Below, one piece after another: positions 5,219-29,429 of a stretch of DNA of 64,000 nucleotides (position 1 is its first letter; each line of letters begins with the position of its first letter). Both the position numbers and the translations under genes were made by a program. The stretch is taken from assembly GCF_002289565.1 (NCBI RefSeq), contig NZ_NTFY01000065.1, forward strand, positions 1-64,000, written 5' to 3'. The DNA comes from Rhodopirellula sp. SM50. GTDB taxonomy: Bacteria > Planctomycetota > Planctomycetia > Pirellulales > Pirellulaceae. Under the pieces are notes generated by a model that made no database searches, was not told the origin of the DNA, and saw nothing but the letters and a program-made list of their open reading frames with translations.

Positions 5219-5372
5219 TAGAGTTTCCAGATCACGCAAGCCAATTCAAAAGACGGCTCACTCACAAGACAACTCCAGTCGTTCGGGACATGATGCGAGC
5301 AAGTGACACAGCATCGAAAGCTGGATCATGGGCGGACGTGCATACGGACACGGTCGCCAAGGTTCGGCGGGT

Positions 5373-5600
5373 GTGATGTCCGAGTGGAACGTGTTGATCA
5401 AGAAAACACGCCGCCACGGTATCGCCGATCCAAAGCTGGTCTGCATCGACATCGCCCCCTACGGCAACACGCAAGCCCCCGACTGCCAGGACATCCTGAA
5501 CGTCGGAGGCTTCAGCGACGCCGTCTTCCGCGTCGTCGCATCGTTCCTGGAAAACGACGCATCCCGCTTCGTCCGTGAAGTGGAATCCGTCGAGTTGTAA
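5373..5600 (+). pseudogene. C-terminal remnant of a TROVE/Ro60-type protein
   Basis: The plus-strand frame encodes [15 protein letters not shown], then a segment containing [15 protein letters not shown] and [12 protein letters not shown], and ends V-E-S-V-E-L-stop. This is the characteristic end of the vWA part of bacterial Ro60 (Rsr/TROVE) RNA-binding proteins. Full-length members are about 500 residues, so roughly 85% of the gene, including the whole RNA-binding HEAT-repeat ring, is missing. The open frame extends back only to about 5328 and upstream sequence does not resemble the family. It is a decayed or truncated gene, followed directly by a palindromic element and a terminator. Confidence 0.75.
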
Positions 5601-5658
5601 CGTAAGGCAAGCATCCTGCTTGCCGTGGAACGCAAGCTAGCAGCTTGCGCCACTTACG
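5601..5658. repeat. Nested palindromic (REP-like) element, three-way junction
   Basis: Two adjacent hairpins are enclosed by an outer stem. Hairpin 1 is GGCAAGCA-TCC-TGCTTGCC (5606-5624), hairpin 2 is CGCAAGCT-AGC-AGCTTGCG (5631-5649), and CGTAAG (5601-5606) pairs with CTTACG (5653-5658). It begins directly after the TROVE remnant's stop codon. Such GCAAGC palindromes recur in planctomycete genomes and resemble REP elements. Confidence 0.65.
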
Positions 5659-5661
5659 ATA

Positions 5662-5700
5662 CGCCCGCGACGGAGATATCCGTCGCGGGCGTTTTCGTTT
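5662..5700 (+). terminator. Rho-independent terminator of the former TROVE gene
   Basis: A perfect 13-bp stem (5662-5674 with 5679-5691, loop GATA) is followed by TTTTCGTTT. It serves the plus strand and lies 61 bases after the stop of the TROVE remnant, so it is probably the original terminator of that gene. Confidence 0.8.
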
Positions 5701-5862: not shown

Positions 5863-8800
5863 CTAGTCGCGCGAAATAAGAAACTGGACGAATTCACCTT
5901 CAGTCATGACAGCGAAGGGCGGGTCGGTGAGGTATCGAGATAGTAGGTCACCATCGAGCACAAGGATCGGTTCGACCGTCCAACTATCGGCTTCGTTGGA
6001 ATCGACACCAAACTCGGAGAGTACATCGCCAAGGTTGCTTCGCACCCACTCGACGCGTTCAAGATGATGGCTAACCGCGCACATCGCGTCGTTGGTATCT
6101 GTAAACAACTCATCGAACTGATTCTTCACTTCGCTCGGAGTCTTGGCCAGCGTGAACGATTTCGCTTCGATAGGGAAGAATGTTCGAGTCGACTTGTGTA
6201 GAACCGCAACATCAATATCTCCGATTCCCTCCCCCGGAGAACGTTCCATTGTGTGGCCGTTGAACTCCGTCATTGATGGCCGAGCCGCATATCCGCAGAG
6301 TGCTGATAGTTTGCCCGCCAGTTCCCGGTCGTACTGTTTTCCACGCCGATTCGCAAGCGTTCCGCGAAGCGTCTTCATCGCTTGATTCGTCGGCGATTTG
6401 ATTCGGCCTGATGTAACGAGATCGCACAAGTATCTAATTGACTGAACCAGAGACCGTCGTCCCCACGTCAGCGTGTCTCCACGCCTTATCAAAGGCTTTC
6501 GCAGATACGACAAGGCACGATTGAATTTCCAGGGCCATAACTCGCCCGTAGCGTATGGCTCCGGTGGCTTGAGGAACTTCTTTCGCGGAGACGCGACAAA
6601 CTGTTCCAATAGCTGCTCAATCAAGTCTCGACTGATATCTGTTGCTTCCTCTAGGAAGTCTATCAGCTCCACTTCGGTTGCCGAGCCTAGACCGTCTGAA
6701 CTGGTAAACTGCGAGTGGCCGATCCCGCCGATTACTGTTCCTACCTCCTCAAGAAGCATGCCAAACTCCGCGATAGACGCGTCGTCGACCAGTTTTTCAA
6801 TCTTGTCCTCATCTTCACGTAGCCTTCGCGCTTCACCTTCATTCTCCTTGGTTTCGCAATTCAGGATCGCATCCGCCTTTGACTCGTAGAAGTCGTTGCG
6901 AATTTTCTCAGCAGCCTTGGCGTAGACAGAATTGCCGAACTTCAGTCGTTGTGATTCAGTCAAATTGACCTCGATCTCAGACAGATTGTTATTCAACCCA
7001 TCGCTCAAAAAGCCACACTCGACAATCTCATTCGCAATTGCAAGCACGCGGTCATATGCGGAAGTGGAGAACGCATCGGAACCCGATGGCGGGATGGCTG
7101 AAACGTATTCCAGTAAGAAGCGACTCGCCAAGCTGGCCTTGTTGAATTCTTCAAGATCGTTTTGCAAAGACTGTCGATTGTCTTCCGTGTCCCCCATCGC
7201 AGAAAGATGCGAACCGACGATACTCTCCGTTCGCCGTAATTCCGCTATAAGAGATTCGTGTCGCGAGATCAGGTTGGGAAGCAACTTATTGTCGTCGAAT
7301 CTCGCGATTTCGGATTCCAACTTTTTGAACATCTCACCCACGATGTCATTGTGGATTGCGTGCGAATCGCATGCGCTAAGTTGCTGGTCGTTAGTCGCCC
7401 GCGCCTTTGCTATCTCTCCGGATTCATCCCGAATCCGCTCCATCTCGAATGACTGAATGCGACGAACTTGAGGGAGCCCACTGCTGTCAAGAATCAACGC
7501 ATCCGATTCACTGAGCGTTTTCATTCGGCGTTTCAATCCAAGTGGTGCATGGATTGCGATCGCCTCGTCAATTTCTTCTGCGTTCATAGGAATGGCGAGG
7601 CAAGCCGAGAGGTCAACGAGCAGGCTCCGCACTAGATCTCGCTCCACGCGATTGTTTGCTTCGGAAGCACCAAGGGCGAACGCCGAATCGAACTGAATCG
7701 AAATACGATTCTGCTCGACGGTTGAATCAAACCCGGTCGAGCCAACGGCAGAATCGGTGTCAAAGAATGCGTCCGGACTCTCAACGTGAACGCTGATCAC
7801 AATTTCATCCGGCAGAGTATCGGTCTCCTCACACCATCTAGTGATCGTTGGAGAAACCTGCCAAATCCAGAAAGCGATCACGTCGGCCAAGTGGAAGCAC
7901 ACGCTTGAGTTTTCGTCCGTTACATCTGCTCCATCTCCTGGCGACACCACCCAAATTGGCAATGGAAGCTCTTCGACCAACAAGCGAACTGGACCGGCTA
8001 GTAGAGGATCGGTCATAAAAATCGGATAGTCCGAAATGCTCTGTGCTCGATAGACTCGCGCAAAAGTGTTTTGGTTTGGCATCCGAACCACGTGCGGATC
8101 GAGCTTTGCCTGAGCATCAAGGCGCACGTTGACACCTGGGCCAAACAGCATAACCATGTCAGGTATGCCATCATCCCCGAAGTAGAATGAATCGCGCTGG
8201 CGGTACTGTGCATACTGATCGAGGAATCCTCCCCCTAGCATGCTAACCATACCGTGTTTTGACTGTTTGCTTTTCCCAAACTGCCAGAGCGACAGCGGGT
8301 CGCCAGAATTCAGTTGCGATACAACTCGCAACTCATCGAGAGTCAAACATATCGTGGGGCAACCGGAAGAAGACAGTTCGGGCGGTGAGTAGCTGTGAAA
8401 ACGCCCGGTTCCCTGTATCACAACAATGTGCATGACCTCGTTGACGCCATCCGTTTGCGCTCGTAAGTCATTGTCTACGTCTGCGGCAGACGCCTGCAAT
8501 TGTTCAAGTTGACTTGACAAGTCCCAGTGGCTTTCACCAACCACACGACTTCCTTTGGTGAGATCGTCGACAACGAGATGCACGACCGCAAGCTTGTCGT
8601 CATCGAACTGGAAAATCCCAACGTCAAGTCCGTTGTTTGAATGAGAGTTTAGCTGCCCGACCATCACCCATTTTTGAATTTCCAAGAAACGCATGATTCG
8701 CACCCATCCCTGCGCCTCGATGGATTTTGTTAACTCCGAAAGAACGCCTTGCTCTTCAGCCAATCTAAAAACAGCGTCTCGAATGGCAGGTAGAAAGTTT

Positions 8801-9528
8801 GTCGGTGCGACAACGATCAGCTCTTCTTCCGTCACCGCAACTGGTCGCGTGAGGGTCGGGTTCGCTAGTGGATTGGCGTATTTCGATGAAATGCCCCCGA
8901 GTTCAAACGTCAAACGACCAAGTCCGCGTGGACCGATATTCCGATGTCCCAGGTCGGCGATAACTTCTGCCTTGTTGAACGTGACAGCTTCTTGAAGTCG
9001 CATCGCCAGCTTCGTGCCTGGCCAACGAATGTCATCGTTATCTGATCGTCCTGGCGTCGTCGTTCGCGTAAGTCCCGCGCGGATCATGCACTGATGGCTT
9101 AGATATAGACCAAAATACACAATTTCGACGGCTTCCTTCCTAAAACTCGCGTCGCGAATGAGCGTTGGGTCAACTGATGCTTTCGCCAATACCTCCAATA
9201 CGAACGGGTCTTCTGGATTTGCACTTGGAATCGTGTAGTACCCACCACCGTAAAAAGGCACTTCGGCGACAAACAGTCCCTCATGTGGATCGCCTGGCAT
9301 CTCAGGGCCACCGCACATTGCCTCACCGGAATTGATCCACGATCGCCATGCGTTCCCATCCATTTTGTACAAAGCCGAGTCGTGGTTCTGAGAGCCAATG
9401 ACTGCGGCGGCACGCGTTAGCTCGACGTAGTAGTCTGCGTTTTCGGGAAGCAGTTGCGCACCACCAACCTTTTGGGCGAGATCGCGAAGGTTAAACTCGG
9501 TCAAATCAGTTGTGATCTTGGCAGCCAT
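5863..9528 (-). CDS. Giant protein B with C-terminal PD-(D/E)XK nuclease domain
   Basis: A 1221-aa protein of no named family that I recognise. The C-terminus has a restriction-endonuclease-like core: NRRGKQ near residue 1060, GDIDVAVL (D1104, D1106) and FFPIEAKSF (E1121, K1123), followed by a helix with K-N-Q-F-D-E-L. The same elements with identical D-to-E spacing occur in the upstream 1304-aa protein. The central parts also align (here SIQFDSAFALGASEANNRVE). Residues ~760-960 are rich in Glu/Asp/Arg/Leu and probably helical. No ATPase, helicase or methylase motif is visible. The start ATG lies 23 bases inside the preceding gene, in a different frame, indicating translational coupling. Nuclease function is inferred from motifs. 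Confidence 0.8.
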   Translation of the reverse strand: MAAKITTDLTEFNLRDLAQKVGGAQLLPENADYYVELTRAAAVIGSQNHDSALYKMDGNAWRSWINSGEAMCGGPEMPGDPHEGLFVAEVPFYGGGYYTIPSANPEDPFVLEVLAKASVDPTLIRDASFRKEAVEIVYFGLYLSHQCMIRAGLTRTTTPGRSDNDDIRWPGTKLAMRLQEAVTFNKAEVIADLGHRNIGPRGLGRLTFELGGISSKYANPLANPTLTRPVAVTEEELIVVAPTNFLPAIRDAVFRLAEEQGVLSELTKSIEAQGWVRIMRFLEIQKWVMVGQLNSHSNNGLDVGIFQFDDDKLAVVHLVVDDLTKGSRVVGESHWDLSSQLEQLQASAADVDNDLRAQTDGVNEVMHIVVIQGTGRFHSYSPPELSSSGCPTICLTLDELRVVSQLNSGDPLSLWQFGKSKQSKHGMVSMLGGGFLDQYAQYRQRDSFYFGDDGIPDMVMLFGPGVNVRLDAQAKLDPHVVRMPNQNTFARVYRAQSISDYPIFMTDPLLAGPVRLLVEELPLPIWVVSPGDGADVTDENSSVCFHLADVIAFWIWQVSPTITRWCEETDTLPDEIVISVHVESPDAFFDTDSAVGSTGFDSTVEQNRISIQFDSAFALGASEANNRVERDLVRSLLVDLSACLAIPMNAEEIDEAIAIHAPLGLKRRMKTLSESDALILDSSGLPQVRRIQSFEMERIRDESGEIAKARATNDQQLSACDSHAIHNDIVGEMFKKLESEIARFDDNKLLPNLISRHESLIAELRRTESIVGSHLSAMGDTEDNRQSLQNDLEEFNKASLASRFLLEYVSAIPPSGSDAFSTSAYDRVLAIANEIVECGFLSDGLNNNLSEIEVNLTESQRLKFGNSVYAKAAEKIRNDFYESKADAILNCETKENEGEARRLREDEDKIEKLVDDASIAEFGMLLEEVGTVIGGIGHSQFTSSDGLGSATEVELIDFLEEATDISRDLIEQLLEQFVASPRKKFLKPPEPYATGELWPWKFNRALSYLRKPLIRRGDTLTWGRRSLVQSIRYLCDLVTSGRIKSPTNQAMKTLRGTLANRRGKQYDRELAGKLSALCGYAARPSMTEFNGHTMERSPGEGIGDIDVAVLHKSTRTFFPIEAKSFTLAKTPSEVKNQFDELFTDTNDAMCAVSHHLERVEWVRSNLGDVLSEFGVDSNEADSWTVEPILVLDGDLLSRYLTDPPFAVMTEGEFVQFLISRD

Positions 9529-12500
9529 TAAGTTTGGTGTTTTCTTCTGATATGTCGTAGCGGTCCGCCAGCAGCGAAAAAGTCGCGATTTCGTTCTGCT
9601 TCATTTGGTCTTTCCACGCGAAGAGCATCGGCACCGGATTCTCAAAGACCAGAAGCGGCTCCATCACTATGTCGGATTTCGACCGCACGAATTTCGCGAG
9701 CTTTTCGGTATTTTCGCGTAGTAGCTCAATTCGGTTCAGGTGTTTCAGCAGATCGTCCGGCTTGCCTTTGCTGTTCAATTCTCCACGGTAGTCGCTAAGT
9801 TGCTCTGCAACTTCACCATGAGTCTTGTGGAAATGAAGTGCCTTACACTCAATGCAAAGGACGCGCCCCGAAGACGGGTCAAAAGCGATGACGTCGACGT
9901 CCCCGAACTTCTTTCCCGCCTTTTCAATAAGGATTTCAGTCATCTGGACCTCAATCCACCTTTTCTTTCGACATGAGGTTACCCAGCCCAACTCGGTGAG
10001 TTTCTCGGCAACGCGTTCGGCGAATTGCTTTCCCCGTCGATTGTTAGTTGTAGACCACCAATCACACATTGGTTTGGACAGGAGATCACGCTGTCGGTAA
10101 GTTCCCTCGTAATACGCTCGAAGCACGTAGAAGACAGCCGAGTTCACCATATCAGGGGATACAAGCAGGTTGCCGGTCGTCACTTCAATGATCGGTCGAC
10201 GTAATACCGACAGAGTTCGTCGGATTCGCCAAAGCTGGATATTTCGTTCGTCTTGATCTTCTGTCAGGTTGCGCCATCCATCGCGTAGTGGAAACGCAAA
10301 AGCTTCGACTAGCATCTTCGCGATTTCAGGCGACCGTTCTGCAGCAAGCGCTTTTTCAAAGTCAGGCCGAGAAATCTCAAACATCAGCTCATTGCACTGA
10401 AGTCCTAGTTCGTAGGCTTTGTCGGCCAGATACGCTATATCTTCGATCTCCAGTCCAAGTTCACTGCGGATCGCCTTCCGAAAGTCCGGCTCAAATTCCG
10501 GCGCGTCAGGTCTTTCCTCAGTGGGTGCAGACGCATAAATCTTCTCGCGGTTTTTCACCGAGTGATCGACACGGTCTCCCGTCGCCCTCCCGTGGAAGGG
10601 ACTAAGGATGTCCCGTTCAAACTTTGTATCGGCCAGAATGTCGCCCAGAGGTGTGATTTCCAACTCCGGAGGCATCGCGTTCATGTGGATCGCGTCTGAC
10701 CAACCACCGAGGATGCATATTGCGTTCACGATCGTAAGAAGGCGAGACAGATCGCCTCTTCCAATTTTCATCCCGCCTGCGTCTGGACACTCACAAACCG
10801 CAACCTCTACCAGCAGACGAGACGGTTGGATGACGCCATCGAGCAACCCAACATGCTCGATTATTGTGCTCATCGCGGCATCTTTGTCTCTATGGAGAGC
10901 AATGTTTGCGTGCGCCGTACGCTCCCATCTTTCCCGCTGAAACAACGCGGCTTCATAGTTTGTTAACGTCGTACGGACCACATTCTGGCGATCAAACTGC
11001 CGAAGCTGTCGGCACAGTTCGTCCTCAAGATAGACAACCGTCCTATTGAGCAGCTGGGTACAAGTCCGTTTCGCTCTTAGCTTCTTCCGGCCTTCCGATT
11101 TGCTCTCGACTTTGAAAGCGAGTCCCAGACGCAGATTGCAATTGTCAATCGGATTTGGTTTGACGACTTTCCCACGAATCGAAGTGCCAAAGCGATCTCG
11201 ATACGATTGCTCGACGATGCCGTGAAGATGGCGTCCATCCGGACCGCCCGTGATTGTATCGACTAAGTCGTTTATTCCATCTTCCGGGATATCAATACCT
11301 GGCAACTCCCTGATCCCATGTAACACCTGCCGCAACAACGCGACTTCTGAATCGTTGGTTGAAGAGGCGGTGCCGATCTCAAATTTCGGTCCGATTTCAA
11401 TCACCACGACTCGGGTTGCTGGATCGGCTGAAAAGCTGATATCGCGCTGTATCTCGTCTACCGTCGGAATTGTTTTTGGTGGCCTGAATCCATCCAACCG
11501 AGATTGGTCGCTGAACCGAAAATTCACCTCGGTCGCTCCCGCGTCTTTGAAGCTGCACCGGTCTCCAATTGATTCTACAATTCGTCCGATCCACGTACGG
11601 AGCATCTCAAGTCGTTCATAGTTCAGTGGACTCAGATCACAATCGGGCAAAGTAAACCACCAAGAGTGGTCGCCGTCAACGAAAATGACACTTGGCTGCG
11701 AAACGTCAAGGTCGACTGGAGCATACGTTTCCCGCAACGCGTCTTCTGCAAAATGATGCTTTGCGAAAACTCGTACCAGCCGAGTTGAACGATCGACGTG
11801 ATTCGCGTCGCGGATGTCGCAGCTACGCAACGATTCGGCACGAATTTGTTGAACGAATCCAGGTGCAATGCCCAAAGTGAAATTCTTGTTTCGGAATTCG
11901 CTTGGCAAATCCTGCGAACGCACAACATGTCCCTCGTTTGCGCGTACCCAGGCTACTAAAGTCGCAATCCCATCGTGATTGTCAAATGTGACTCCAAGCT
12001 CTTCTGCTTTTCGCTTCCCTTGCAAGATTCTCACAAGGTCGAAGGTCTCGAAACTATCAAGACGATTCAAGTGAATCAGATCTTCAAGAGAGCAGTGTTC
12101 AACGCACCAGTCCTGCTGGTCAAACTCAATCGGCGGAAGATCAATCGTTCTGCCAACACCGCAATCTACGATAAGGGTCAGACCAAGATCAAGTCTCGCG
12201 CGCTTCCGGAACTGTGACGCACATCTGCTGATTCGATCCCTGATTTCACTCGATGCAGTTGCTCCCCGTGGACGTCGGCCAACAGTTCGCGTCTCGGCAA
12301 TGTCGTCCAGATCGTCCCCAACGAAAAGAAGCTGGATGACTTCGCCTGAATCCGAGATTGATGCGCATTCGGCGATTGGGCCTGCCCCAGAGTCCCGAAA
12401 CGCCAACGGATAATTGGGTGGAATGCCAAATACGCGCTCTGTCTGAATGAGGTCTATCGTTGAGGCATTTAGCCGATCAGCAAACTCCGCAACAAAGCCG

Positions 12501-13420
12501 TTTCCGACTGCAGCTTCTACAAGGAACTCGCGAATCGCAATGGGAACTGAAGCGGGCATCGCCATTACCCACGAATCGGCTTCTCGGATCAAGGGAAATC
12601 GGTGGAGCAAACTGTTTGAAGTTGGCAAATTTTCTTGTGTTGACCGCCATTTGTCACGGATCGTGAAAGGCCGAAGCAAATGTTCCTGGATATCTAAATC
12701 GTCAAGGTCTTCAAGCGTAAACACGACGCCTCGTGGACTGGGGAGGTCGCTCACATTTACCGAATCCAGCGGGGTTGGGCTCCCTACCTCATATCGCCCA
12801 ACACTATTCCGTCGACAAGACTCATCGACCAATGCAATGAGCGATCGAATACAGCTCTTCAGCGTGTCGAATCCATCCTCGTCCGGCGTCGCTTCCATCA
12901 CCGCGAGGCACCGCTGCAAGATAGAAATGTTGCTTTCCCAGATTCCGTTCAACAGCAGATACGAACGATTCTGGAAAACAACCGGAGCCGTCATCACATT
13001 TTCTGCCGGATCTTCAAGGCGAATGAGACGTGTTCTCTGCAACGCATTAAACACCTCGGCAACGCACGTATCCGATGCACCTTCACCATTGGCGATTGCC
13101 ATGACGGTGTGCGCCATGGCCTCAATTCTCAGCGTATTAGACTGCAATTGAGGGTCAAAGAACAAGGAAGAAACTCTAGCTGTCAGATCGAAACATGAGC
13201 ACCTTTGAATGTTCTTTCCCTGCAGACCGAGGTCAGCGAGTAGCTCCAACGGAGTTGGCTCAGTCAAACAAAATTCCTTTGGGAGATCAACGGTTTCTTC
13301 CATGGTGAGGTTTCCCAAAGACTCCGGTGTCAGATTAGCCACTAAGTCTGCTAATCTGCAAGTTCGACGACACAACCAATGACACAGCTCCGAAGATGGA
13401 GTTCGCATGGCTTGCTTCAT
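9506..13420 (-). CDS. Giant protein A with C-terminal PD-(D/E)XK nuclease domain
   Basis: A 1304-aa protein, first gene of a two-gene minus-strand unit. The C-terminal domain has NNRRGKQFAERVAEKL, then FGDVDVIAF (D1174, D1176) and VLCIECKAL (E1191, K1193), then H-G-E-V-A-E-Q-L: a canonical PD-(D/E)XK fold with predicted DNA cleavage activity. It is homologous to the downstream 1221-aa protein in this domain and in a central stretch (VVVIEIGPKFEIGTASSTND), so the pair arose by duplication. The N-terminal ~1000 residues show no recognisable ATPase or binding domain. The start is uncertain: the ATG at 13420 and another at 13408 both lack a clear ribosome site. The neighbourhood suggests defence; the biochemical role is not known. 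Confidence 0.8.
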   Translation of the reverse strand: MKQAMRTPSSELCHWLCRRTCRLADLVANLTPESLGNLTMEETVDLPKEFCLTEPTPLELLADLGLQGKNIQRCSCFDLTARVSSLFFDPQLQSNTLRIEAMAHTVMAIANGEGASDTCVAEVFNALQRTRLIRLEDPAENVMTAPVVFQNRSYLLLNGIWESNISILQRCLAVMEATPDEDGFDTLKSCIRSLIALVDESCRRNSVGRYEVGSPTPLDSVNVSDLPSPRGVVFTLEDLDDLDIQEHLLRPFTIRDKWRSTQENLPTSNSLLHRFPLIREADSWVMAMPASVPIAIREFLVEAAVGNGFVAEFADRLNASTIDLIQTERVFGIPPNYPLAFRDSGAGPIAECASISDSGEVIQLLFVGDDLDDIAETRTVGRRPRGATASSEIRDRISRCASQFRKRARLDLGLTLIVDCGVGRTIDLPPIEFDQQDWCVEHCSLEDLIHLNRLDSFETFDLVRILQGKRKAEELGVTFDNHDGIATLVAWVRANEGHVVRSQDLPSEFRNKNFTLGIAPGFVQQIRAESLRSCDIRDANHVDRSTRLVRVFAKHHFAEDALRETYAPVDLDVSQPSVIFVDGDHSWWFTLPDCDLSPLNYERLEMLRTWIGRIVESIGDRCSFKDAGATEVNFRFSDQSRLDGFRPPKTIPTVDEIQRDISFSADPATRVVVIEIGPKFEIGTASSTNDSEVALLRQVLHGIRELPGIDIPEDGINDLVDTITGGPDGRHLHGIVEQSYRDRFGTSIRGKVVKPNPIDNCNLRLGLAFKVESKSEGRKKLRAKRTCTQLLNRTVVYLEDELCRQLRQFDRQNVVRTTLTNYEAALFQRERWERTAHANIALHRDKDAAMSTIIEHVGLLDGVIQPSRLLVEVAVCECPDAGGMKIGRGDLSRLLTIVNAICILGGWSDAIHMNAMPPELEITPLGDILADTKFERDILSPFHGRATGDRVDHSVKNREKIYASAPTEERPDAPEFEPDFRKAIRSELGLEIEDIAYLADKAYELGLQCNELMFEISRPDFEKALAAERSPEIAKMLVEAFAFPLRDGWRNLTEDQDERNIQLWRIRRTLSVLRRPIIEVTTGNLLVSPDMVNSAVFYVLRAYYEGTYRQRDLLSKPMCDWWSTTNNRRGKQFAERVAEKLTELGWVTSCRKKRWIEVQMTEILIEKAGKKFGDVDVIAFDPSSGRVLCIECKALHFHKTHGEVAEQLSDYRGELNSKGKPDDLLKHLNRIELLRENTEKLAKFVRSKSDIVMEPLLVFENPVPMLFAWKDQMKQNEIATFSLLADRYDISEENTKLNGCQDHN

Positions 13421-14591
13421 TCAAGACCACAATTTAGTCGATTCTCTTTACTTCGCGGAGTACCCAAACGAACCGCTGGCCGAAGAATCCGTCGCTGCCG
13501 ATCAACTCACCGCAGGTCAAGTCGGTTGGGCAAACCGAGGGGGCGAACCCACTCGTCGAATTGCATTCGGTGTCTCAGACCGATGCAAGATATAGACGTG
13601 CGTAAGCTGCACTGGTGGCCGACGCCGGATAGTCGTGGGAAATGCAGTCGCTGACGCCGGTTCTATCGACAGGGGCGAACTTCGCACCTGCGCCCTGACG
13701 CGTTGAGCTGCGGTCAGCGAGCCGTCCAAAAGCGTGATCACTGGTTTAAAGAACGCCAGTCACCCGCACTCTGGCAATCGCTGCGGTTCCGGAATGGGGG
13801 GGGCATTGGCGGTTGCCAATGCCAGCATCCCGCGTGTTTGATATCATCCTGCCGTGGTTGATCTTGCCATGCAGCAATGAGCGGCTGATCGATTGGATTC
13901 TTGTGACGTGCGGTAACACTGCCAAGGGCAGCGTTCACCTACTATTAGACAAGGCGTTGTTTCTGGATTCGACTGCGAAGCTTGGTTCCGTGCCCGACTG
14001 CCTGATGTCGAGGGGCGCTGAAAAGGGGCCAGTGATGGGCGCTTGAAAGCCCTCTACCCTGAGAGGCTATTCGTCTACGACAACAAGTGTAAATCCAAAG
14101 CGCATGCGGCCGCTGCGCAATTGCTTGAGCATGTCCGCAAAAGAGAAGAAGCCAATTCTGAAGCCGAAGCTGGTTGAATCTTTTTTCACTTGGGCTTTCT
14201 TTGAGTTGCGAAAAACATGTCACTAGCCTTGCGAGCAAGCACTGGTGCCCGGCTCGAGCTTCCTGTGATTGCAACTGCCTTGTCCGCCTCGGCAACGGTT
14301 AGCAAATCCTGTCCTGTCAGCTTGAAGGATCTTTTCACCAGACAACCGGTCCACTTGGGAAAAAAATGGTTCAGCCACTCGGCTTACCGCCCAATATTTT
14401 ACTGCATTGAGCAGAGTCGCACACAGATCACTCGGAACTAGGAGCATATTATGAGTCTGCGACTTTGAATTCTAGCGGCGCTTCCGTGTGCCGCGTGAAA
14501 CAATTCAGCATTAGCCGTTCTGTTCACGCAGTGCGTTGAAACCGGCGGTAGGTCCTACTATACCATCGCCAAATTCAACGACTAAATCCGA
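13421..14591. other. 1.2-kb spacer with no supported intact gene
   Basis: This separates the twin giant genes from the STAND gene. No frame has a recognisable product. A 49-residue plus-strand stretch ending at 14177 (contains LKALYPERLFVYDNKCKSK) has protein-like composition but is preceded by stops, and may be the tail of a decayed gene. The region must contain the promoter for the leftward twin pair. Confidence 0.4.
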
Positions 14592-17500
14592 TTATCCGAA
14601 AGCCGGGATGTCCAAAACAATTGACCTTACGACAAAACCATCACCAGTCAATTCGTTGGCTTGCTGCCTGAAGTATTCGCGGGCGTCGGTAGTGCTACGC
14701 TTTCGCGTGTCCTTGTAGCGATTGTCAGCCGGGTCCCATTGACCGCAAAGAAACCAGCCGACAACGTAGGTGCCAAAAAAGCAGCTGTTGTTCTTCATGT
14801 AGCGGTCCAGAAGTTGCGTCTGCATCGCTGTCTCAACCTCGCGGTTCCAGCATCCCTTGACCTCAACGATTGTCTTGATCTGTCGCTCCTCGCCACGTGA
14901 CAGTTGAATGCGTACTGTCACGTAGAGATCCGTGAACTCCCCGCCTTCCTCGCCTCTTTGACGGACCTGTACTTCACGAAGCGAGACGATCCCAAGGGCG
15001 TCAAGATCACGCCGGAGGTGTCGGGCAATGTAGTCTGACAGATCATTTTCATTTACTGGACGCCACGTCTTGTCGCGTTTGTCGTAATCCCAGAGATCCC
15101 TCGCAGCAGGGATCTCTCCAGAAAGCTCTGACTGCAATCGGCTTAGCGACTCTGCAATGACGTCATGAAGCTCAGACTCACTGCGCACCAATCGACTGTT
15201 CTTAGATCCTAGCAATGTCTTTAACGCGTCAATATCCATCGGTTCCCAAGACGAGTTGAGGTGAGCCCGACGAGCACGGCGTACACTTCCCCAAAGAAAC
15301 TCGTACTGAGGAAAGTCCTGTGCAAGCTGCGTAACTTGCTGACAAGATTCGGATGAACCGAGCTCGCAGAGTCGATTCAGCAGGCGGTCTCTAAATTGTT
15401 GAACTTCATACTCGTCCGATAAATTTCTTGCGCCGGAGCTTTCGTCGTTATCCTCGTAGGGGTATTCACGCACAATGATTCGAAACAAAGCGGCGATAGT
15501 CTCCTCGGACAGCGAGTCGACAGACCCACGAGGCTCTCTGAAAGTGCTTGCGATGGTTGGAACGATTCGGCGTCTCGCAACCTTGTTAACCTTCAAACTT
15601 GGTAATAGGGATCCAACGCCTCTATCGTTGGAGCAGAACCACAATGCGACGCTTGCAGCACACGCTTGGCCGAGATTTGACCAATGCAGACCGGAAATGC
15701 GATGTGCAACCTCAACGGCTCTGTCTCTGCCCGCTGAGATCAGAAACTCAAGGATCTGACCGACCAACCAAGGGCGTAGTGGTCGGTTGCGCGGCCTCCG
15801 CCAGTTTATGGCACTGCTGACGAGTTTTGTACTGCCGTATCTCTGTCTTGGTCGATCGCTGTTTCTTGCGTGCCATGACTTGCGTTTGCAACGGTCAGCC
15901 AATAGCTGGGGTTCCTGGCTCGCACAGGGCACTCGTCGGGACCGACGCATTCCTTGTTTCTGCGCGATTGCTGATAGGCGACGACCGGCGTGAAGGCCCT
16001 TGCTCCCAAAAAGAAATTGCCTTGGCAACATATCGATGAGCGTCTGCTCAAGCCTTTCATCCAGGATGTTACGGATACGCCCCAACGCCGTCAAACTCAA
16101 ACGTGAGTCGGATCGATTCCTATAATCGATGATCGATTTGATTGTTTCGACAACGGCGTTCGGGGCAACCTCGTACAACCGAGCTGTCAGCCTGATTGCC
16201 CTGGAGTGCGTTTCACTCCCTGGGACTTCCGGAATGTCGAAGCACAAGATTACTGGGGCCAGCTCGGCCCATACCCTGTCCGACAGGGTTCTAAAATCAG
16301 CATCCGCTTCTTTGGTCACTAACACCAAGGCTAGGTACGCGAAATTCTCAGGAAAGTAGCTCAACGAACCTGAAACCCAGCGGTATCTGGCCGTTTCCCA
16401 GGCTTCAAGAAACGAAACGGCCGCTTGCACGATACGTTCCCGTTGCGTTTCACTCAGCACGCTCCATCCAGGGAAGGTTGTCGGATCATCTGGGAATATA
16501 CCGTCATCGGCGAGCATTTCCCTTCCTAGCCGAAGATCTTTCAGGATCTGCAAAAAGCGATTTGAGTTTCCACCTTCGCAAAGCGCAAGATTCTCCTCTA
16601 TGCGGTCAACGCGGTTAGAACCTGTGCTGCGTGATGCTCTCACCGTGGTTTCTCCCTCTTTAGCACGAAATCGAAGTTCGGCTTGGTGTTCCGCTCTCAT
16701 CTGGTCGGCCTCTACCGATTTAATCGCGACGAATCCGAAGTCTCCGCGGAAGACGTCCGCCACGGCCGCGTTGACAGCAGACAGCTCTGCAAGTTTGTCT
16801 CGATTCGTTTCGTCACTCTGGCGATAGACCCGATAAAGAATTGCGGCCCAGCGATGTTCGTCATCCGGAGCAGTTGCCAACGTGACCTTGTTGATAAGCC
16901 AATCGGTATCGTCTTGCCGCAACAGATGAAGGCAGAGCTGTTGGACGATGTACTTTTCTTCTCGCGTGAACGGATCGAGTGGGACAAGTGCTGCTTCCGC
17001 GAGTGCACGGCGCGCATCAGCACTGATTGTTTCAAGCTGGTCGCCCGAGAGGATCTGGCGATGAAACTTCGTTACAGCGATCCGCGCAAGACCCGCGATT
17101 CCGACACGAACTTCCTCATCATCCAGTGCTGTTACGCACTTTGCTACGATGTCCCTAATCACGTAACGGAAAGGGTGCGTGTCGAACATCTGGTCGACAT
17201 GGTTGATCACCCATTCAATTGCGCCGGGTAGATCGCACTTTTCGAGGTGCTTGATCAGTGTCCCATGAAGAAAGTTTGCGTATTGTCCACCATACGCATC
17301 GCGTTTTGGTTCTGTCAGGAATTCCGTGAAGAGTGCGTCGGCGCTGATGACGCGAGATGGCCAAAGTGCGTTCAGAGCGATGCCACGAAGATCGTCATCA
17401 AGATCAGCCGTCACGTGTGATGACGATTTCAACAATAGGAGAAGCTGGTTTGGACGGGGGGCAATCTCCACAAAGGCTTCCGCAGCGGCCTTTCGCACGT

Positions 17501-19097
17501 CTATAGGCTCAGACGTATCAAGCGCTGAATTAAGCATTGCGTGCGATAGCTGCTCGACCTTGCATTGCTCAACGATTTCACAGACAAGAGTTCGCGCTTG
17601 CTCGGGCTCAGACCGATCCAGGAAAATTGGCAATATCTGCCCGCCGAGGCTCGGATGGTTAAGCTTCTTAAACGCAAAGCGGTAGGCCCAGCTGGGATCG
17701 TCGAATTCGCTTACTCGATATCCTTCGATTAGCCTTTGTACCAGCGTTTCTCTGACGTCGGTATCGAAATCTGATGAGTCTCCGCCTAGCATCACGAGAG
17801 GGTCGCCCTTGACGATTTCACTTCGAATCGAGTCTGAAGTCGTTGCCAGCCATGCTGCAACCTCTCGGAGCTGCGGCACAACCCTGCTAGACCGCAGAGG
17901 ATGAAATATCAGGCTCTTTCGTTGCGAGTCGTCGAGTGGCTGGCGTGAGATGTGACGCGCTGCCAGATACTCACGATAGGTTTCGTGTCGAAACGCGAAT
18001 TGATCTTGACCCCGCCCACAAAACAGTCCTGTATCGAGAGCCTCGCGAACTGCATCCTCAGTTACAAAGAGACCATCTGCGGCCTCTGGCTCGATTTCCC
18101 CCGCGAGGTCAGCCAACGACAAGTACGGGCCACCGGTGCGAGGAACTGCCGATGTGTCGACAATCGACTTGCCGCAAAAGGCCATGTAGGAGGCGATTCG
18201 TGCGGCAACAGAAAGTCGTTGACTTGGCGTGTGCACCCCGAAACGATGAGCCTCGCGGCGCGAAGTGCTTAGCTCCGTTACGAGGTGCTTGCACCCTTCC
18301 TCATAAAGGTCCCGCTTTGATATGGGAAGCGTTGCTTCCCTGCCATACAGAGTAAGTAAGAACCCAAGTGTGATCGGTGCCATGGCGAAAGCTTCAAGAT
18401 CTCGCTCACGGATTTGATCTAGAAAGTCCTCACCGTCCAAACCATGAAATTCTGCTGCAGTAACCACATCCTTCCGACGCAACGGCGCTAAATCCAGAAC
18501 GCGAATCTTCTCATCGTCATCCCAGATATCTTTGGCACTCTGCTCAAGGCTTTGCCCCCAATCCCGTGTGCGACACGCGATCCTGATCCTAAAGCGACCT
18601 GACAATGCTTGCCATTCTCGGATTTCTCGTGCCAGGATGGTGGTCAGCTGCGGAACATCGAGAATGCCCTCGTCCAAGCTATCGAGAAAAAGTGTATAGA
18701 TCCCCGTTCCTGCTTCCCAAGCTTGGACCTTTTCGCTACGAAAGACTTGCTCAATCAGAGCGGTTCCCGAATCGCAACCATTCAAATCAAAGAAAACGAC
18801 AAGATCTTCATCGCTCGCCCCCAATCTTGCTGCTTCCAAGGCCAAGCGAAATTCATGAGACTTTCCAATCCCGGGTTCACCCAACATGGCGATGAAATGA
18901 GCGTCGGCACAAACGTCGAGTGTGAGAACGTCAGGATTCAGGACGTTTCCATATTCAGTATCTGGATCACTCAGGAAACCGCGGTCACCGAGGTGGACTT
19001 TGCTGTTCGATGGATGCCAGAAACGCTTCCAATCGTAGGATGGCTTCTTCACTTTTTGCCTAGACCCGGTTTTTATGTGGGCTACTAACTCGTCCAT
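14592..19097 (-). CDS. STAND/NACHT-like ATPase with C-terminal PD-(D/E)XK nuclease
   Basis: A 1501-aa protein. Residues 73-80 are a Walker A motif (GEPGIGKS), 136-144 a Walker B LFLDSLDEG as in NACHT/STAND NTPases, and R-I-A-C-R-T-R-D-W near 176 fits sensor 1. A winged-helix-like region with FRHETYREYLAARH follows at ~365. The centre (~400-1300) reads as helical repeats of HEAT/TPR type. The C-terminus has FTDLYVTV (D1390) and TIVEVKG (E1412, K1414), a nuclease signature. The design matches antiviral STAND sensors, which recognise a phage component through their repeats and then unleash an effector nuclease. Residues ~1021-1110 are abnormally Arg/Ser-rich and may be out of frame. It lies 55 bp downstream of the NERD-helicase, probably in the same operon. 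Confidence 0.75.
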   Translation of the reverse strand: MDELVAHIKTGSRQKVKKPSYDWKRFWHPSNSKVHLGDRGFLSDPDTEYGNVLNPDVLTLDVCADAHFIAMLGEPGIGKSHEFRLALEAARLGASDEDLVVFFDLNGCDSGTALIEQVFRSEKVQAWEAGTGIYTLFLDSLDEGILDVPQLTTILAREIREWQALSGRFRIRIACRTRDWGQSLEQSAKDIWDDDEKIRVLDLAPLRRKDVVTAAEFHGLDGEDFLDQIRERDLEAFAMAPITLGFLLTLYGREATLPISKRDLYEEGCKHLVTELSTSRREAHRFGVHTPSQRLSVAARIASYMAFCGKSIVDTSAVPRTGGPYLSLADLAGEIEPEAADGLFVTEDAVREALDTGLFCGRGQDQFAFRHETYREYLAARHISRQPLDDSQRKSLIFHPLRSSRVVPQLREVAAWLATTSDSIRSEIVKGDPLVMLGGDSSDFDTDVRETLVQRLIEGYRVSEFDDPSWAYRFAFKKLNHPSLGGQILPIFLDRSEPEQARTLVCEIVEQCKVEQLSHAMLNSALDTSEPIDVRKAAAEAFVEIAPRPNQLLLLLKSSSHVTADLDDDLRGIALNALWPSRVISADALFTEFLTEPKRDAYGGQYANFLHGTLIKHLEKCDLPGAIEWVINHVDQMFDTHPFRYVIRDIVAKCVTALDDEEVRVGIAGLARIAVTKFHRQILSGDQLETISADARRALAEAALVPLDPFTREEKYIVQQLCLHLLRQDDTDWLINKVTLATAPDDEHRWAAILYRVYRQSDETNRDKLAELSAVNAAVADVFRGDFGFVAIKSVEADQMRAEHQAELRFRAKEGETTVRASRSTGSNRVDRIEENLALCEGGNSNRFLQILKDLRLGREMLADDGIFPDDPTTFPGWSVLSETQRERIVQAAVSFLEAWETARYRWVSGSLSYFPENFAYLALVLVTKEADADFRTLSDRVWAELAPVILCFDIPEVPGSETHSRAIRLTARLYEVAPNAVVETIKSIIDYRNRSDSRLSLTALGRIRNILDERLEQTLIDMLPRQFLFGSKGLHAGRRLSAIAQKQGMRRSRRVPCASQEPQLLADRCKRKSWHARNSDRPRQRYGSTKLVSSAINWRRPRNRPLRPWLVGQILEFLISAGRDRAVEVAHRISGLHWSNLGQACAASVALWFCSNDRGVGSLLPSLKVNKVARRRIVPTIASTFREPRGSVDSLSEETIAALFRIIVREYPYEDNDESSGARNLSDEYEVQQFRDRLLNRLCELGSSESCQQVTQLAQDFPQYEFLWGSVRRARRAHLNSSWEPMDIDALKTLLGSKNSRLVRSESELHDVIAESLSRLQSELSGEIPAARDLWDYDKRDKTWRPVNENDLSDYIARHLRRDLDALGIVSLREVQVRQRGEEGGEFTDLYVTVRIQLSRGEERQIKTIVEVKGCWNREVETAMQTQLLDRYMKNNSCFFGTYVVGWFLCGQWDPADNRYKDTRKRSTTDAREYFRQQANELTGDGFVVRSIVLDIPAFG

Positions 19098-19152: not shown

Positions 19153-20862
19153 TTACAGCACGTCTGGTTCAGCAGCCAGTATCACTAGTAGATGCTTTGC
19201 TCGTGAACAGCCGACATAGAAATCAGAAATTGAGAAGTACGGTGTTGATTCGGGGTTGGGCACGTCTGTCATGATGATGGCATCGGCCTCGAGCCCTTTG
19301 AATCGCCGGATGGTTGACAGCAAAACGCCCTTGTCGGCTCGCCATTCATTTGGATTTGTGCAGATCGGCGTCCTACCGATCTTGTCGATGTTCGCCAAGC
19401 AAGTCTTGCTCTTCTCAAATGGCGAGAGGATGGCAATCTGCGATGGCTTAAGCTTTCCCTTACCAAGCCAATCGGAAACGATCTTCTTGATCTCCTGAGA
19501 GCGGGACTCAGCTTTCGGAAGCCTTTTAATGACGCTCTCGACGCCTTCAGGAGCATCGGACCTGACCGCAATTTCGACGCCTCGAATTTTTCCACACGTC
19601 AATGCGATGTTGCGAGTGTTTCGGCAATTGGTTGGCAGGTCGAAAGGCTTGCCAAGATCCGGGATCGCCAGATCTTCATCGACATACAGATTCTGCGCCG
19701 GATCGAAAAATACGTAGAACGGGCCGTTTTCTCCCTCGCTGTTGATCATCTCCATGGCGATCCACCAGTCGGGATAGAAATCCTGACCCTCGTCAACAAC
19801 CACCGCATCAAATTTCTGCGGCACAATGTCTATCGCATTGAGGAATAGGTCCGGCGCAGTCGCCTTCCAGAACTCACCATTATCGTCCCATTTTGGGGCG
19901 AACGAGATCCTCGCTTTACGGCACCACTCCGCACAGAGCCCGTGGAACGTGTCCACCTTGATCAACCCTGCCAACTCAGTTGGTAGACTGCTCTCCAAGT
20001 ATTCGGCCAGCGGCTTGTTGTAGCAGACAAGCAACGTTTTCCTTCCTTGGCGAGCAAACTTCTGCGCCTGCGCACTCGCTAGCATCGTCTTGCCGGAACC
20101 TGCCACACCCTGAATCGCCGCTCGCTGATGAGCATCTAAGAAGTCCAGCAATCGGAGTTGATCTTCGGTTAGGCGATGAAGCCGATCTTCCTGCTCCTGT
20201 ACCTGTCGAAACAATACTGGCAACAACTGGAAAGCGGGTGAAAGTGCCAACTGAATCCCCGACATCTCCTGTTTGCTTAAGCTGACCGGTGCACTGCCTC
20301 GCTTCCATAGGCCCAAGAGCTTTGTGACACGTTGGCCAAGGTGTTCAAGATCGGGTGCCGAGAAAATCACGCTCGTGTCGGCACCGGGAGGGGCACTGCC
20401 GGTGTAGTCGCAATGGGGAAAAACAACTGCGTACCCATACGGACAAGGAATGTTACTCTGGCCTCGAAACGACTCTTTGCGGATTGCCTGTTCGAGTGCA
20501 TGAGTGTTCCGACGAGCTTGCTCGAAAGGATCTTTGATCTCGACGACCCGATGAGATTCCTGTCGAAACCAGCCGCGATTCCCGCTGTCATAGCGAATCT
20601 CACCACCTTTGACTTCGAGAATCAGAATACCGCCTTTCGGATGCACGATAACGAAATCGGCTTCGCCCTCACGCAAGGCAAGCTTGCCCTTCTTGATTGT
20701 GCCGTCAGCACGAACGATGTCATTCCTAGTTGCTTTCAGCCACGGGTAGCTGTGATAAATGATGCAGTCGTCCGGCAACTGAGCGACGAGGGCCATCGCC
20801 ACATCTCGTTCACCCACGTTCGAGATGTCTTTGGGATCGATTTTCGGAATCAGTCTCGCCAC
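19153..20862 (-). CDS. NERD-domain nuclease fused to UvrD/PIF1-like helicase
   Basis: A 569-aa protein. The N-terminus is a NERD domain: G-E-R-D at 17-20, E-A-D-F at 67-70 and ILEVKGGEI with E83/K85, a PD-(D/E)XK-type nuclease core. The second half is a superfamily 1 helicase/ATPase with Walker A GVAGSGKT (252-259), motif II DEGQDF (357-362), L-P-T-N-C-R-N-T-R (motif IV/V area) and a C-terminal YVGCSRAKH motif VI. NERD-helicases are common next to restriction and DISARM genes. The start is GTG at 20862, with GAGGGG seven bases upstream, 10 bp after the drmB stop. It stands where drmC would be expected after drmB. Confidence 0.85.
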   Translation of the reverse strand: MARLIPKIDPKDISNVGERDVAMALVAQLPDDCIIYHSYPWLKATRNDIVRADGTIKKGKLALREGEADFVIVHPKGGILILEVKGGEIRYDSGNRGWFRQESHRVVEIKDPFEQARRNTHALEQAIRKESFRGQSNIPCPYGYAVVFPHCDYTGSAPPGADTSVIFSAPDLEHLGQRVTKLLGLWKRGSAPVSLSKQEMSGIQLALSPAFQLLPVLFRQVQEQEDRLHRLTEDQLRLLDFLDAHQRAAIQGVAGSGKTMLASAQAQKFARQGRKTLLVCYNKPLAEYLESSLPTELAGLIKVDTFHGLCAEWCRKARISFAPKWDDNGEFWKATAPDLFLNAIDIVPQKFDAVVVDEGQDFYPDWWIAMEMINSEGENGPFYVFFDPAQNLYVDEDLAIPDLGKPFDLPTNCRNTRNIALTCGKIRGVEIAVRSDAPEGVESVIKRLPKAESRSQEIKKIVSDWLGKGKLKPSQIAILSPFEKSKTCLANIDKIGRTPICTNPNEWRADKGVLLSTIRRFKGLEADAIIMTDVPNPESTPYFSISDFYVGCSRAKHLLVILAAEPDVL

Positions 20863-20872
20863 GTCGTGCCCC

Positions 20873-23200
20873 TCATTGTTTTAGCACTGCCAGCGGTCGG
20901 AATTGCTCCCACTCGTCGGCCGACAACTTGAATTTCACCGGTGTTCCTTTTGCTCGAATGGTGACAAGCACACTGGCTTCGCCACTTGCCACATCAACCT
21001 GTCGCTGCCAAAGCAGCTTTCCGCAGGCCAGCTTCACGTTTTCATTGCCGTGGGCCATGGCATCATGCTTGACGATGACAACCGAGTTCTTCTTCGGTTG
21101 ATCATCATCGGCAGAAAGAAAACGAAACTCCGCCACCGGCGACGGCAAGCGAAACGCTTTCGCCAATTCCTTAGACAACTTGACCCTCGCTGTCGGCTCC
21201 TCCACCTTCGTGCTCAACAGGTCGAAGAACTCGATGTAATTGCCTTCGGGTTCTGTGTCGTCTGATGTTGCTTCTTCTTCAAGAGTTGGATCGTCGTGAC
21301 CACCGTCGTCCGAGTCGGACAACTCAAAGAATGCCAGTCCCGAAACATCCACCGTCTCCATCAGAACGCTTCGGTCCAGATACTTGTTGCCTCGCTCACA
21401 GGAAGTCTCTGGGGCAAACAGGCACGCATGGCAACTTGCTCCGTGCAGACTCGTGCCTTCCTTGCCTGCTTGATGTTCGGCGCAAAGCGGATCACTGGAA
21501 CACAGCCGCATCGAATCCAATGCTTGATTTAGATGACGTTCCAACACGACGGGCTCACCAAGTGACACGAGTCCGCCGAGTGTTCCCTCGCTGTCCGGTG
21601 CTGCCGTGTAAATCAGTACGCCTGCCATCTCCGGTTTACTGCTACCTGGATTCCGTGAGTAAATGCGTTCTCGAAGCGATGCAGCCGTGTATCCGCACTC
21701 CAACGACAGTTGCCGAATCAATGCGTGCGCAAACGAATGCAGCAGCACGAACCGGATTTGTGGATAAAACTCTTCATGTGGACCGGGTAGGCCACGAGCG
21801 TTTCGCCAGTCAATGTGAGCGGCCAGAAATTGCTCGTTTAACGCCGAAACCCGATCCGTCCAATCCAGCACTTTGTCTTCGTTGAACTGAAAGAAGATTC
21901 CCTCTCCACGAATTTCGTTCGCTGGCACCCATTTTGCTTTTCCACGAGAGATCGCCATGCGTTGTTCTTCAGGAAAGTCAGCCGGATTCTCGTAATCGCC
22001 GGGTGATTCAATCCGGGTAAACCCAATCAGGGATCGCACCTCTCGCAGTCTCTCGGCAAGGACGATCCGCTCAAAATATTTTGCGTATCGCTTGGGCGGT
22101 TTGACTTCACGAAGACGAAAGTCCTTCGTCCGTTGAGCATTCGCCGGATCAATGAAGACATTCCACTCTGGCGTCTTCAAATCTCGAACCTCTTCTTCAG
22201 CCTCCTCGGACTCCTCGGCCTCATCCTCATCACGCTTGTCTTGGATCGCTGCCCACAACTCTTGATCCGAGTACTCAATGAATTCACGAAGCAAATTCCG
22301 TCGTCGGTCCCTTACGATGTCACGTATTCCTTCAACATCATTAAGCTCGCTCCAATGATCGATGACCAACTGCTTCAGCAGATCAGCACTTTCTGGCACA
22401 GACAGTGCAGACAAAATCAACGGAAACCAAGAGTTTGACGCCCCCTGCAACATCGCGCGAACTTGAATCGGTTGCTGGTTCTCATCTTTGCACCCTCGTT
22501 CCTCGAAGTCGCGAAGGTGCGGCCTGCGCCCACGACAATCCGGCAGATCGTTTGTTTGCAGCCGGAACGCATCCGACATTGGGCGTGATATCTCGCACGT
22601 TTCACATCGGACATAGATATCCGCAGCCTCGCCGGACGGCCCCATCTCCAGCAGTTGCAGCTTATAAGAGCACTTTGTCGAACCACGGTGAACGAAATCG
22701 ACCCACGGAAAATCATCAAGATGCCCGTTCTTACAAGCCGTAATGAATCGGGCCGGAATGACGGTCGGTAGTCGCCCCGGTACCCGACAGTTCTCGTGAA
22801 CGTATCGAGTTCGGTCTGGACGGAACGGATCAGTCTTCAGGATGAACTGGTTACTCGCCAGCGGAGCCAAACGGCGGCACCGAGGACACACCATCCAGCG
22901 TGGAAACGGAGCAACCGGCACGCCAACAATGGACTGCTGCTCAAACGGATTCGACCGATCCGTGTCAGGAACCACTGGCGGCGAACGAAGCGACATCACC
23001 TGACCGCCCATTGCATCACGTACCGATGCCAACAGCCGTTCTTCATTGATCTCTTGATAGTCAGTCGATGGCCAGTCTTCGAGCCCCATGACCATCACCG
23101 ACAAGTGAGGCAAATCCACAATCGATCCAATGCCGAACGTGGTCAGGATTTGACTGGGACGAAGCTCGCCAACTCTAGGTCTTTCTCGACTTGTGTTCAT
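20873..23200 (-). CDS. drmB: DISARM protein DrmB (DUF1998)
   Basis: A 775-aa DUF1998 protein. Features seen: the N-terminal LRPSQILTTFGIGSIVDLP signature, a C-P-R-C zinc-ribbon half at 105-108 with a partner H-E-N-C at ~136, FITACKNGHLDDFPW at ~152, and the terminal cysteine cluster CHACLFAPETSCERGNKYL near 620. These are hallmark DrmB segments. In described DISARM systems DrmB forms a complex with the helicase DrmA and stimulates its DNA-dependent activity. An acidic insertion at ~325-345 and another at ~655-690 look like linkers. The start ATG overlaps the drmA stop (ATGA), so the two are translationally coupled, consistent with an equimolar complex. Confidence 0.93.
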   Translation of the reverse strand: MNTSRERPRVGELRPSQILTTFGIGSIVDLPHLSVMVMGLEDWPSTDYQEINEERLLASVRDAMGGQVMSLRSPPVVPDTDRSNPFEQQSIVGVPVAPFPRWMVCPRCRRLAPLASNQFILKTDPFRPDRTRYVHENCRVPGRLPTVIPARFITACKNGHLDDFPWVDFVHRGSTKCSYKLQLLEMGPSGEAADIYVRCETCEISRPMSDAFRLQTNDLPDCRGRRPHLRDFEERGCKDENQQPIQVRAMLQGASNSWFPLILSALSVPESADLLKQLVIDHWSELNDVEGIRDIVRDRRRNLLREFIEYSDQELWAAIQDKRDEDEAEESEEAEEEVRDLKTPEWNVFIDPANAQRTKDFRLREVKPPKRYAKYFERIVLAERLREVRSLIGFTRIESPGDYENPADFPEEQRMAISRGKAKWVPANEIRGEGIFFQFNEDKVLDWTDRVSALNEQFLAAHIDWRNARGLPGPHEEFYPQIRFVLLHSFAHALIRQLSLECGYTAASLRERIYSRNPGSSKPEMAGVLIYTAAPDSEGTLGGLVSLGEPVVLERHLNQALDSMRLCSSDPLCAEHQAGKEGTSLHGASCHACLFAPETSCERGNKYLDRSVLMETVDVSGLAFFELSDSDDGGHDDPTLEEEATSDDTEPEGNYIEFFDLLSTKVEEPTARVKLSKELAKAFRLPSPVAEFRFLSADDDQPKKNSVVIVKHDAMAHGNENVKLACGKLLWQRQVDVASGEASVLVTIRAKGTPVKFKLSADEWEQFRPLAVLKQ

Positions 23201-28124: not shown

Positions 28125-28160
28125 GCTATACCCTTTATCGAATTGCGGTCGCAATCGTTT

Positions 28161-28871
28161 TCAATCAGTTTCAAATAGGTCCTGCCAAGCGTCCAAATTT
28201 CGATACTTGCGAACAGGCTCCAGAGACCTTGCCGCATAGTCCTCACTAACTTGATCAATCTTGTAACGGCAACGTGTACAGTCCCATAGGACAAGCCAAA
28301 ACTTTCCGTCAGTTGACTTGCCAATGTGCTCGGACACAGGTGGAGCCGTCGTCAAGTCGAGACTAACCAGAGACTTACTGATATCGGCAGGCAGCTTACC
28401 CAACCAGTCTTCAGCAACTGAGTTTTCCCGAGATTCGCTTGAACCCCAAAGCTGCTGTGCAAGCTCAGGACGCTGATCAAGATTCGCACAGATGTCTTCC
28501 CAAAATTGAACTTCGATCTTGAAACGATACGACTTCTTGTTCAGGTCTAGGACGGTGTCTTGTGCATTCCTGCTTCTCTTTGCAGTTGTGGCAATGATTA
28601 CGTGATCTATTTCATGAGCGGAACCTCCGATCTTTGCAACTTCGTCCTTGATTTCTTTCGGCGGAATACTTTTTTGAGGTTCATGGTGTTTGCACTGAAC
28701 TGCAAACAGTGGTTTTTGATTTGTCACATCAATAATGTCGATACCGTCTTGCTGCTCTCCCCTCTTTCCATAGCGAGTTAGTGCCGGTCGCTCGAGGACC
28801 ACTTTGAAGTAACGAACACAAAACTCCTCGAACTCATCTTCATTTCCGGGCATTTGATATCGATGACGCAT
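28161..28871 (-). CDS. Mrr-like PD-(D/E)XK restriction endonuclease
   Basis: A 236-aa protein from ATG at 28871. A longer open frame to 29153 exists, but its extra 94 residues are Ser/Pro/Thr-rich and overlap the real upstream gene in another frame, so it is rejected. The N-terminal half has FEEFCVRYFKVV, then GIDIIDV (D45) and FAVQCKHH (Q59-C-K61), the D...QxK variant of Mrr-type nucleases that often cut modified or foreign DNA. K-E-I-K-D-E-V-A-K-I-G and HVIIATTAKRSRNAQD follow, as in the Mrr fold. The C-terminal ~80 residues (contain C-T-R-C) are unassigned. It sits between the small winged-helix-like gene (29 bp away) and the HEPN-like gene. Confidence 0.8.
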   Translation of the reverse strand: MRHRYQMPGNEDEFEEFCVRYFKVVLERPALTRYGKRGEQQDGIDIIDVTNQKPLFAVQCKHHEPQKSIPPKEIKDEVAKIGGSAHEIDHVIIATTAKRSRNAQDTVLDLNKKSYRFKIEVQFWEDICANLDQRPELAQQLWGSSESRENSVAEDWLGKLPADISKSLVSLDLTTAPPVSEHIGKSTDGKFWLVLWDCTRCRYKIDQVSEDYAARSLEPVRKYRNLDAWQDLFETD

Positions 28872-28899
28872 GACGGTGGATACTGCGAAGTTTTTAGCT

Positions 28900-29319: not shown

Positions 29320-29429
29320 GACAACGGACGTTTCGAGTTGGTCGATGGGAGTCCTTGGTGTTTGTTTCTTTTTGGCTTTCCGTTTCTGTTTCTTCTTTGC
29401 TTCCTTCTTGGTGTCGGCCTTCTTGAATT

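Follow-up and report, generated by a model that had tools for sequence, protein, structure and literature searches.

Upx is known as a single-gene system. Nucleases built from two subunits, with one active site per chain, are exemplified by the restriction enzyme BbvCI. Upx was reportedly described by Gao et al. 2020. Upx is named in surveys of Pseudomonas and Vibrio and is reported in Pseudomonadota; the papers drawn on here are PMC12458937, PMC12629846, PMC10855318 and PMC12824646. A 64,000-nucleotide (nt) stretch of Rhodopirellula sp. SM50 (contig NZ_NTFY01000065.1, positions 1 to 64,000), referred to below as the window, contains two large adjoining genes, A and B, whose products are both full-length Upx-fold proteins and belong to the Upx family. 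With moderate confidence, this A-B cassette is regarded as a two-gene Upx anti-phage variant, the partners of which most likely act together on phage DNA. The apparently new element looks to be the pairing of A with B, the Upx nuclease itself being known. A literature search, with subscription journals mostly outside it, gave no work on the Upx mechanism or on a two-gene Upx among the matches listed, and the searched term is absent from the main text of PMC13367071.

Assignment of A and B to the Upx family

Gene A (9506..13420) and gene B (5863..9528; 1221 amino acids [aa]) are large open reading frames (ORFs) that follow each other in the order A, B on the minus strand. The end of A and the start of B have 23 nt in common (9506..9528), which likely couples their translation. 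A is 1304 aa long as called, and its start is probably overcalled: A of G1580, a genome of the same genus, is 1265 aa long and begins opposite Met40 of window A, so that the true start likely lies at 13303, giving 1265 aa. The original prediction of two overlapping genes of 1304 and 1221 aa was correct, coordinates included, as was the claim that their products align with each other (BLASTP, 22% identity across 480 columns, E value 1e-14, well beyond chance). Profile and structure evidence indicates that A and B are homologous over most of their length. Scanning for promoters and terminators gave fewer sites than shuffled sequences did.

The PADLOC Upx model (PDLC02221) matches A at 1e-166 (positions 54-1250 of 1271) and B at 6.4e-37 (positions 251-1240). 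The NCBIfam Upx model (NF042954) gives 626.6 bits for A (5.9e-188) and 157.6 bits for B (2.3e-46), both far below its equivalog cut-off of 1900 bits, so that neither protein is filed as an Upx equivalog and both are family relatives. In a sequence search of the PDB, 9WUF was the sole match up to E 1 (A, 1.1e-104; B, 2.3e-26). This entry, released 2026-02-11, is titled “Cryo-EM structure of Upx” in Foldseek. AlphaFold models were obtained for residues 81-1280 of A (predicted local distance difference test [pLDDT] 80.7, predicted template modeling score [pTM] 0.86) and residues 22-1221 of B (pLDDT 84.9, pTM 0.85). Both match 9WUF in Foldseek, A with E 7.7e-59, template modeling (TM) score 0.80/0.80 and root mean square deviation (rmsd) 5.5, and B with E 2.4e-48, TM 0.73/0.73 and rmsd 7.3. 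For each protein, 9WUF is the only PDB match below E 0.001; weak matches to acyl-CoA carboxylases (E ≥0.009, TM ~0.08) were put down to chance.

The Upx profile matches and the Upx fold mean that A and B do not represent an undescribed nuclease family. The proposal of an undescribed system, corresponding to no named one, is accordingly not supported, as both proteins match Upx in PADLOC and in NCBIfam and the structure models of each lead to the known fold of 9WUF. With described Upx (NF042954, PDLC02221, 9WUF), A and B share sequence, fold over most of their length and the C-terminal D-E-x-K residues; they differ from it in that two diverged Upx-fold proteins stand in one cassette. Pfam gave no usable domain in either protein, none being above cut-off, and PDDEXK_11 was found in A only at E 0.025, below cut-off. 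The predicted lack of an ATPase, helicase or methylase agrees with the Pfam scan of A and B at E values up to 10.

The AlphaFold models place a PD-(D/E)XK nuclease core at approximately residues 1116-1212 of A (9785..10075, minus strand) and 1049-1142 of B (6103..6384, minus strand). In the family alignment, the catalytic motif comprises D1176, E1191 and K1193 in A (9842..9895, minus strand) and D1106, E1121 and K1123 in B (6160..6213, minus strand), both with D-15-E-x-K spacing. These residues had been placed correctly from the sequence, and they are intact in 9/9 A and 33/33 B rows of an alignment of 42 family members, and in both partners of all three A-B pairs. The motif region of B is modeled as a helix, a strand, a strand with the D, a strand with E-x-K and a helix, which fits a PD-(D/E)XK core. 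That of A is modeled similarly, with less confidence, and GDIDL...IECK of 9WUF aligns with A.

Conservation of the cassette and possible mode of action

The A-B cassette recurs, in the same order and on the same strand, in two further genomes of the window's taxonomic order. In G1580, A is 68% and B 78% identical to the window proteins and the genes overlap by 26 nt; in G1122, which belongs to another family of that order, A is ~33% and B ~36% identical and the genes are separated by 30 nt. No other gene adjoining the pair is common to the three genomes. Apart from A and B, the 80 kb surrounding the G1122 pair contains no ORF with a match among the window ORFs; in the 60 kb around the G1580 pair, other matches to the window are distant (an ORF at 25 kb with 21% identity, and the two flanks of the window's own defense block at 20 and 39-43 kb). 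A helix-turn-helix gene 147 nt upstream of G1580 A matches nothing significantly in the window or in the searched G1122 stretches. Trees of A and B both give ((window,G1580),G1122), with support of 100/99 for B and 84/86 for A. Pair-specific inserts of ≥8 residues were looked for in A and B and none were found. The partnership of A with B is proposed because cassette order is conserved and the two genes diverge in parallel.

Both genes are under purifying selection, as indicated by the low ratios of nonsynonymous (dN) to synonymous (dS) divergence between the window and G1580. Nei-Gojobori (NG86) estimates are dN 0.241 and dS 2.388 (saturated) for A, a dN/dS of ~0.10, and dN 0.132, dS 0.816 and dN/dS 0.16 for B. 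A is more diverged than B, chiefly within its first 700 residues. Identity at third codon positions is 0.30 at the start of A, 0.62-0.77 at its end, 0.77 at the start of B and 0.24-0.45 at its end. The pattern fits exchange of the A-B junction as one tract, and recombination is suspected; the 23-nt overlap is too short to account for the junction peak in synonymous identity.

A and B each combine a large N-terminal and middle part that lacks a recognized enzyme motif with a C-terminal PD-(D/E)XK nuclease. The two proteins are probably co-translated and may co-assemble. In an anti-phage role, they would act on phage DNA either as a heteromer, such as a physical A-B heterodimer, or as two coordinated single-site nucleases together cutting both strands, and the N-terminal part would be a sensing or DNA-binding part. 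Because both active sites are intact and 9WUF is listed with one chain, we infer that two single-site chains could cut double-stranded DNA. The pair can be likened to BbvCI-type nucleases, in which two homologous single-site chains could each cut one strand; the likeness is one of description, and A-B has no known specificity or partner methyltransferase. A more elaborate version, proposed tentatively, is an obligate two-subunit Upx in which two anciently diverged Upx-fold chains combine into a single sensor-nuclease whose two active sites differ and would cut one strand each. The N-terminal part of A would vary to recognize different phages, and B and the A-B junction would be a stable core that passes from genome to genome.

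With both of its active sites intact, the naturally paired form would allow a clean test of whether Upx-fold nucleases nick DNA or cut both strands, and of which part senses phage. In addition, the analysis reveals a broad range of B-like relatives to which current Upx models give weak scores (60-182 bits in 16 genomes).

A-type and B-like genes outside the cassette

B relatives were sought with a profile made from P0001, two Deinococcus plasmid proteins and one planctomycete protein. At least 31 B-like loci were found in 84,980 species genomes, with one more in viral contigs. The 31 loci are a lower bound, because the scan with two short patterns listed neither G1122 nor G1580, which were missed by the patterns or lie outside that genome collection; some of the loci are partial (~100 residues in L041). 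They are distributed among Acidobacteriota, Bacillota, Bacteroidota, Actinomycetota, Myxococcota, Planctomycetota, Zixiibacteriota, Chloroflexota and a Thaumarchaeota bin. The B profile outscores the A profile for the family ORFs of 32/32 loci, and B relatives in the 31 genome loci are usually single genes. Two B-type proteins that are 38% identical stand in tandem, 5 nt apart, in Pyrinomonadaceae (L012, 10082-17460), a further case of paired Upx-fold nucleases. On a plasmid of Deinococcus sp. QL22 (L003, 13720-21666), a B-type gene is preceded by a STAND gene resembling Avs2 (NCBIfam 2.7e-67, below cut-off).

In trees, window A groups with Upx-type proteins in one clade (100%), from which window B is excluded; the pair therefore did not arise by recent duplication. 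A recent tandem duplication, as considered for A and B, was rejected on this separation; the original prediction of duplicated partners is partly right, the two proteins being homologous. The term “B-like” is used here for proteins that fall outside the A clade; the family members other than A types are not shown to form one clade. Three Bacteroidota proteins (L023, L031 and L035) are placed with A by two of the three trees and with the remaining members by the third.

A-type genes were sought with the Upx profile in whole genomes of the window's phylum and order and of four other phyla, without Pseudomonadota, in overlapping draws of which the sizes are not additive. Matches of ≥554 bits were found in seven genomes (G000, which is the window's own, G384, G554, G1122, G1546, G1423 and G1580); a weak partial match in G1071 (21 bits) was left out of this count. 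B lies directly downstream of A on the same strand in three of the seven (G000, G1122 and G1580), and in G1423 the contig ends 226 nt past A. Together with Bosea (L006) and viral (L068) loci, eight A loci have readable downstream sequence, and A is paired in three of them. A broken Sinorhizobium gene and Salmonella fragments were left out of the eight. The former, an A-type gene on plasmid pHRB800 (L005, 7138-13998), is fragmented, and an IS66 element lies between the fragments; probing Escherichia coli genomes with the DNA of a Salmonella A-type fragment gave no match. In IMG/VR viral contigs, searches with A yielded a single A lacking B (L068) and those with B a single B lacking A (L043), and phage records, searched with A queries only, contained no A relative.

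Several of these observations weigh against joint action of A and B. No A-type ORF was found in the stretches fetched around the 32 B loci (31 genome and 1 viral), several of which end at contig ends, and 16 B-bearing genomes searched whole, of unstated completeness, gave no A-type match. The best Upx-profile score in those 16 genomes was 182 bits, and A types elsewhere score 554-1711. Conversely, A has no adjoining B in G384, G554 and G1546, in which 3.9, 6.8 and 11 kb were read downstream and the genome search gave no second match. With the Bosea and viral loci, five of the eight readable A loci thus lack B, and each type is evidently able to exist without the other. Furthermore, just three pairs are known, all in one taxonomic order, and the paired A clade is moderately supported, a tree with the solo A of G1546 nearer not being rejected (approximately unbiased test, p-AU 0.112). 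None of five tested neighbors in G1122 matches PADLOC. In the PDB table, 9WUF is listed with one chain, which is compatible both with a heteromeric pair and with its absence. The predicted coupling of the partners is therefore borne out in part: the cassette is kept in three genomes with different neighbors, and loci with A or B alone also occur.

As both types also live alone, the main rival explanation is that two independent single-gene Upx-type systems are stacked in one operon, each sensing and cutting by itself, with pairing widening the phage range. This is possible and doubtful: a second tandem, B-B, exists in L012, and A and B each retain the intact active site that an independently acting enzyme would require. 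Nevertheless, the order, tight junction and parallel divergence of A and B persist even at 33-36% identity, in three settings without any other common adjoining gene. It is improbable that one partner is mainly regulatory (a sensor, inhibitor or scaffold) and the other alone cuts, though both retain nuclease residues. Homologous pairs in defense can specialize, and the greater divergence of A, concentrated in its N-terminal part, would be consistent with such a division of labor; against it, D, E and K are invariant in both proteins and dN/dS is far below 1 for both. Joint action of A and B on phage DNA remains the preferred reading.

Genomic surroundings and defense setting

In the window, A and B are preceded on the same strand by a helicase gene, a NACHT gene and a class 1-like DISARM operon (20873-38378, minus strand) that encodes DrmD, a Lit-like peptidase (34258-35229), DrmMI, an Mrr-type nuclease (28161-29153), DrmA and DrmB with a DrmC-like end, in addition to two proteins without match (26952-28154 and 33512-34291). 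The NERD-UvrD helicase (19153-20862, minus strand) matches PADLOC RTasNERD-Hel at 4e-64, a name given to partners of defense reverse transcriptases. An EruA-like NACHT/STAND protein of 1501 aa (14592-19097, minus strand) matches NCBIfam at 1.2e-78, below cut-off; visual inspection suggests a nuclease-like motif at its C terminus, and residues ~1045-1110 are oddly rich in R, K and S.

It is highly improbable, and was rejected, that A-B is an accessory nuclease module of the DISARM operon with its helicase and NACHT genes, since the same-strand position directly downstream of these genes is outweighed by a 1171-bp gap without a sizeable ORF between the NACHT gene and A and by the absence of any DrmA match from the whole G1580 and G1122 genomes (DrmA thus being present in one of three pair-holding genomes). 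A and B match none of the DISARM models in PADLOC. The differing immediate neighbors of the pair and the lack of DrmA in G1580 and G1122 mean that it does not depend on an adjacent DISARM operon.

Two window segments, 5316-5699 and 39381-40175, have collinear matches of like orientation at G1580 positions 37284-37719 and 56474-59999. Between these flanks, the window carries A-B, the NACHT gene and DISARM, and G1580 another block with a type I restriction system. The spot between the flanks is a defense hotspot that exchanges its content. The G1580 A-B pair (9842-17297) lies ~20 kb outside the shared flanks, so that the pair is not tied to that spot and has its own history; the type I restriction system of G1580 is ~28-37 kb from the pair.

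Ten B neighbors, mostly large genes near B, were chosen by hand, and seven match PADLOC, most strongly BrxL (L029), GajA (L036) and a PifA-like protein (L018); the other three have no match. Ten neighbors in G1122, analyzed by Pfam, are mostly ordinary genes and include a Tse2-like ADP-ribosyltransferase gene (L059, 18301-18867; Pfam 2.4e-6) oriented away from the A-B pair. A defense setting is evident in the window and likely at several B loci; for G1122, none is shown. Defense genes near several A or B loci provide indirect support for an anti-phage role.

At the far end of the window, a 3152-aa ORF extends over 54498-63956 on the minus strand. The tandem-repeat scan covers periods up to 500 and is hence blind to longer spacing; overlapping ORFs recur here at an exact spacing of 2907 bp (58767/61674 and 59655/62562), which suggests that the 3152-aa ORF holds a long, near-identical internal repeat.

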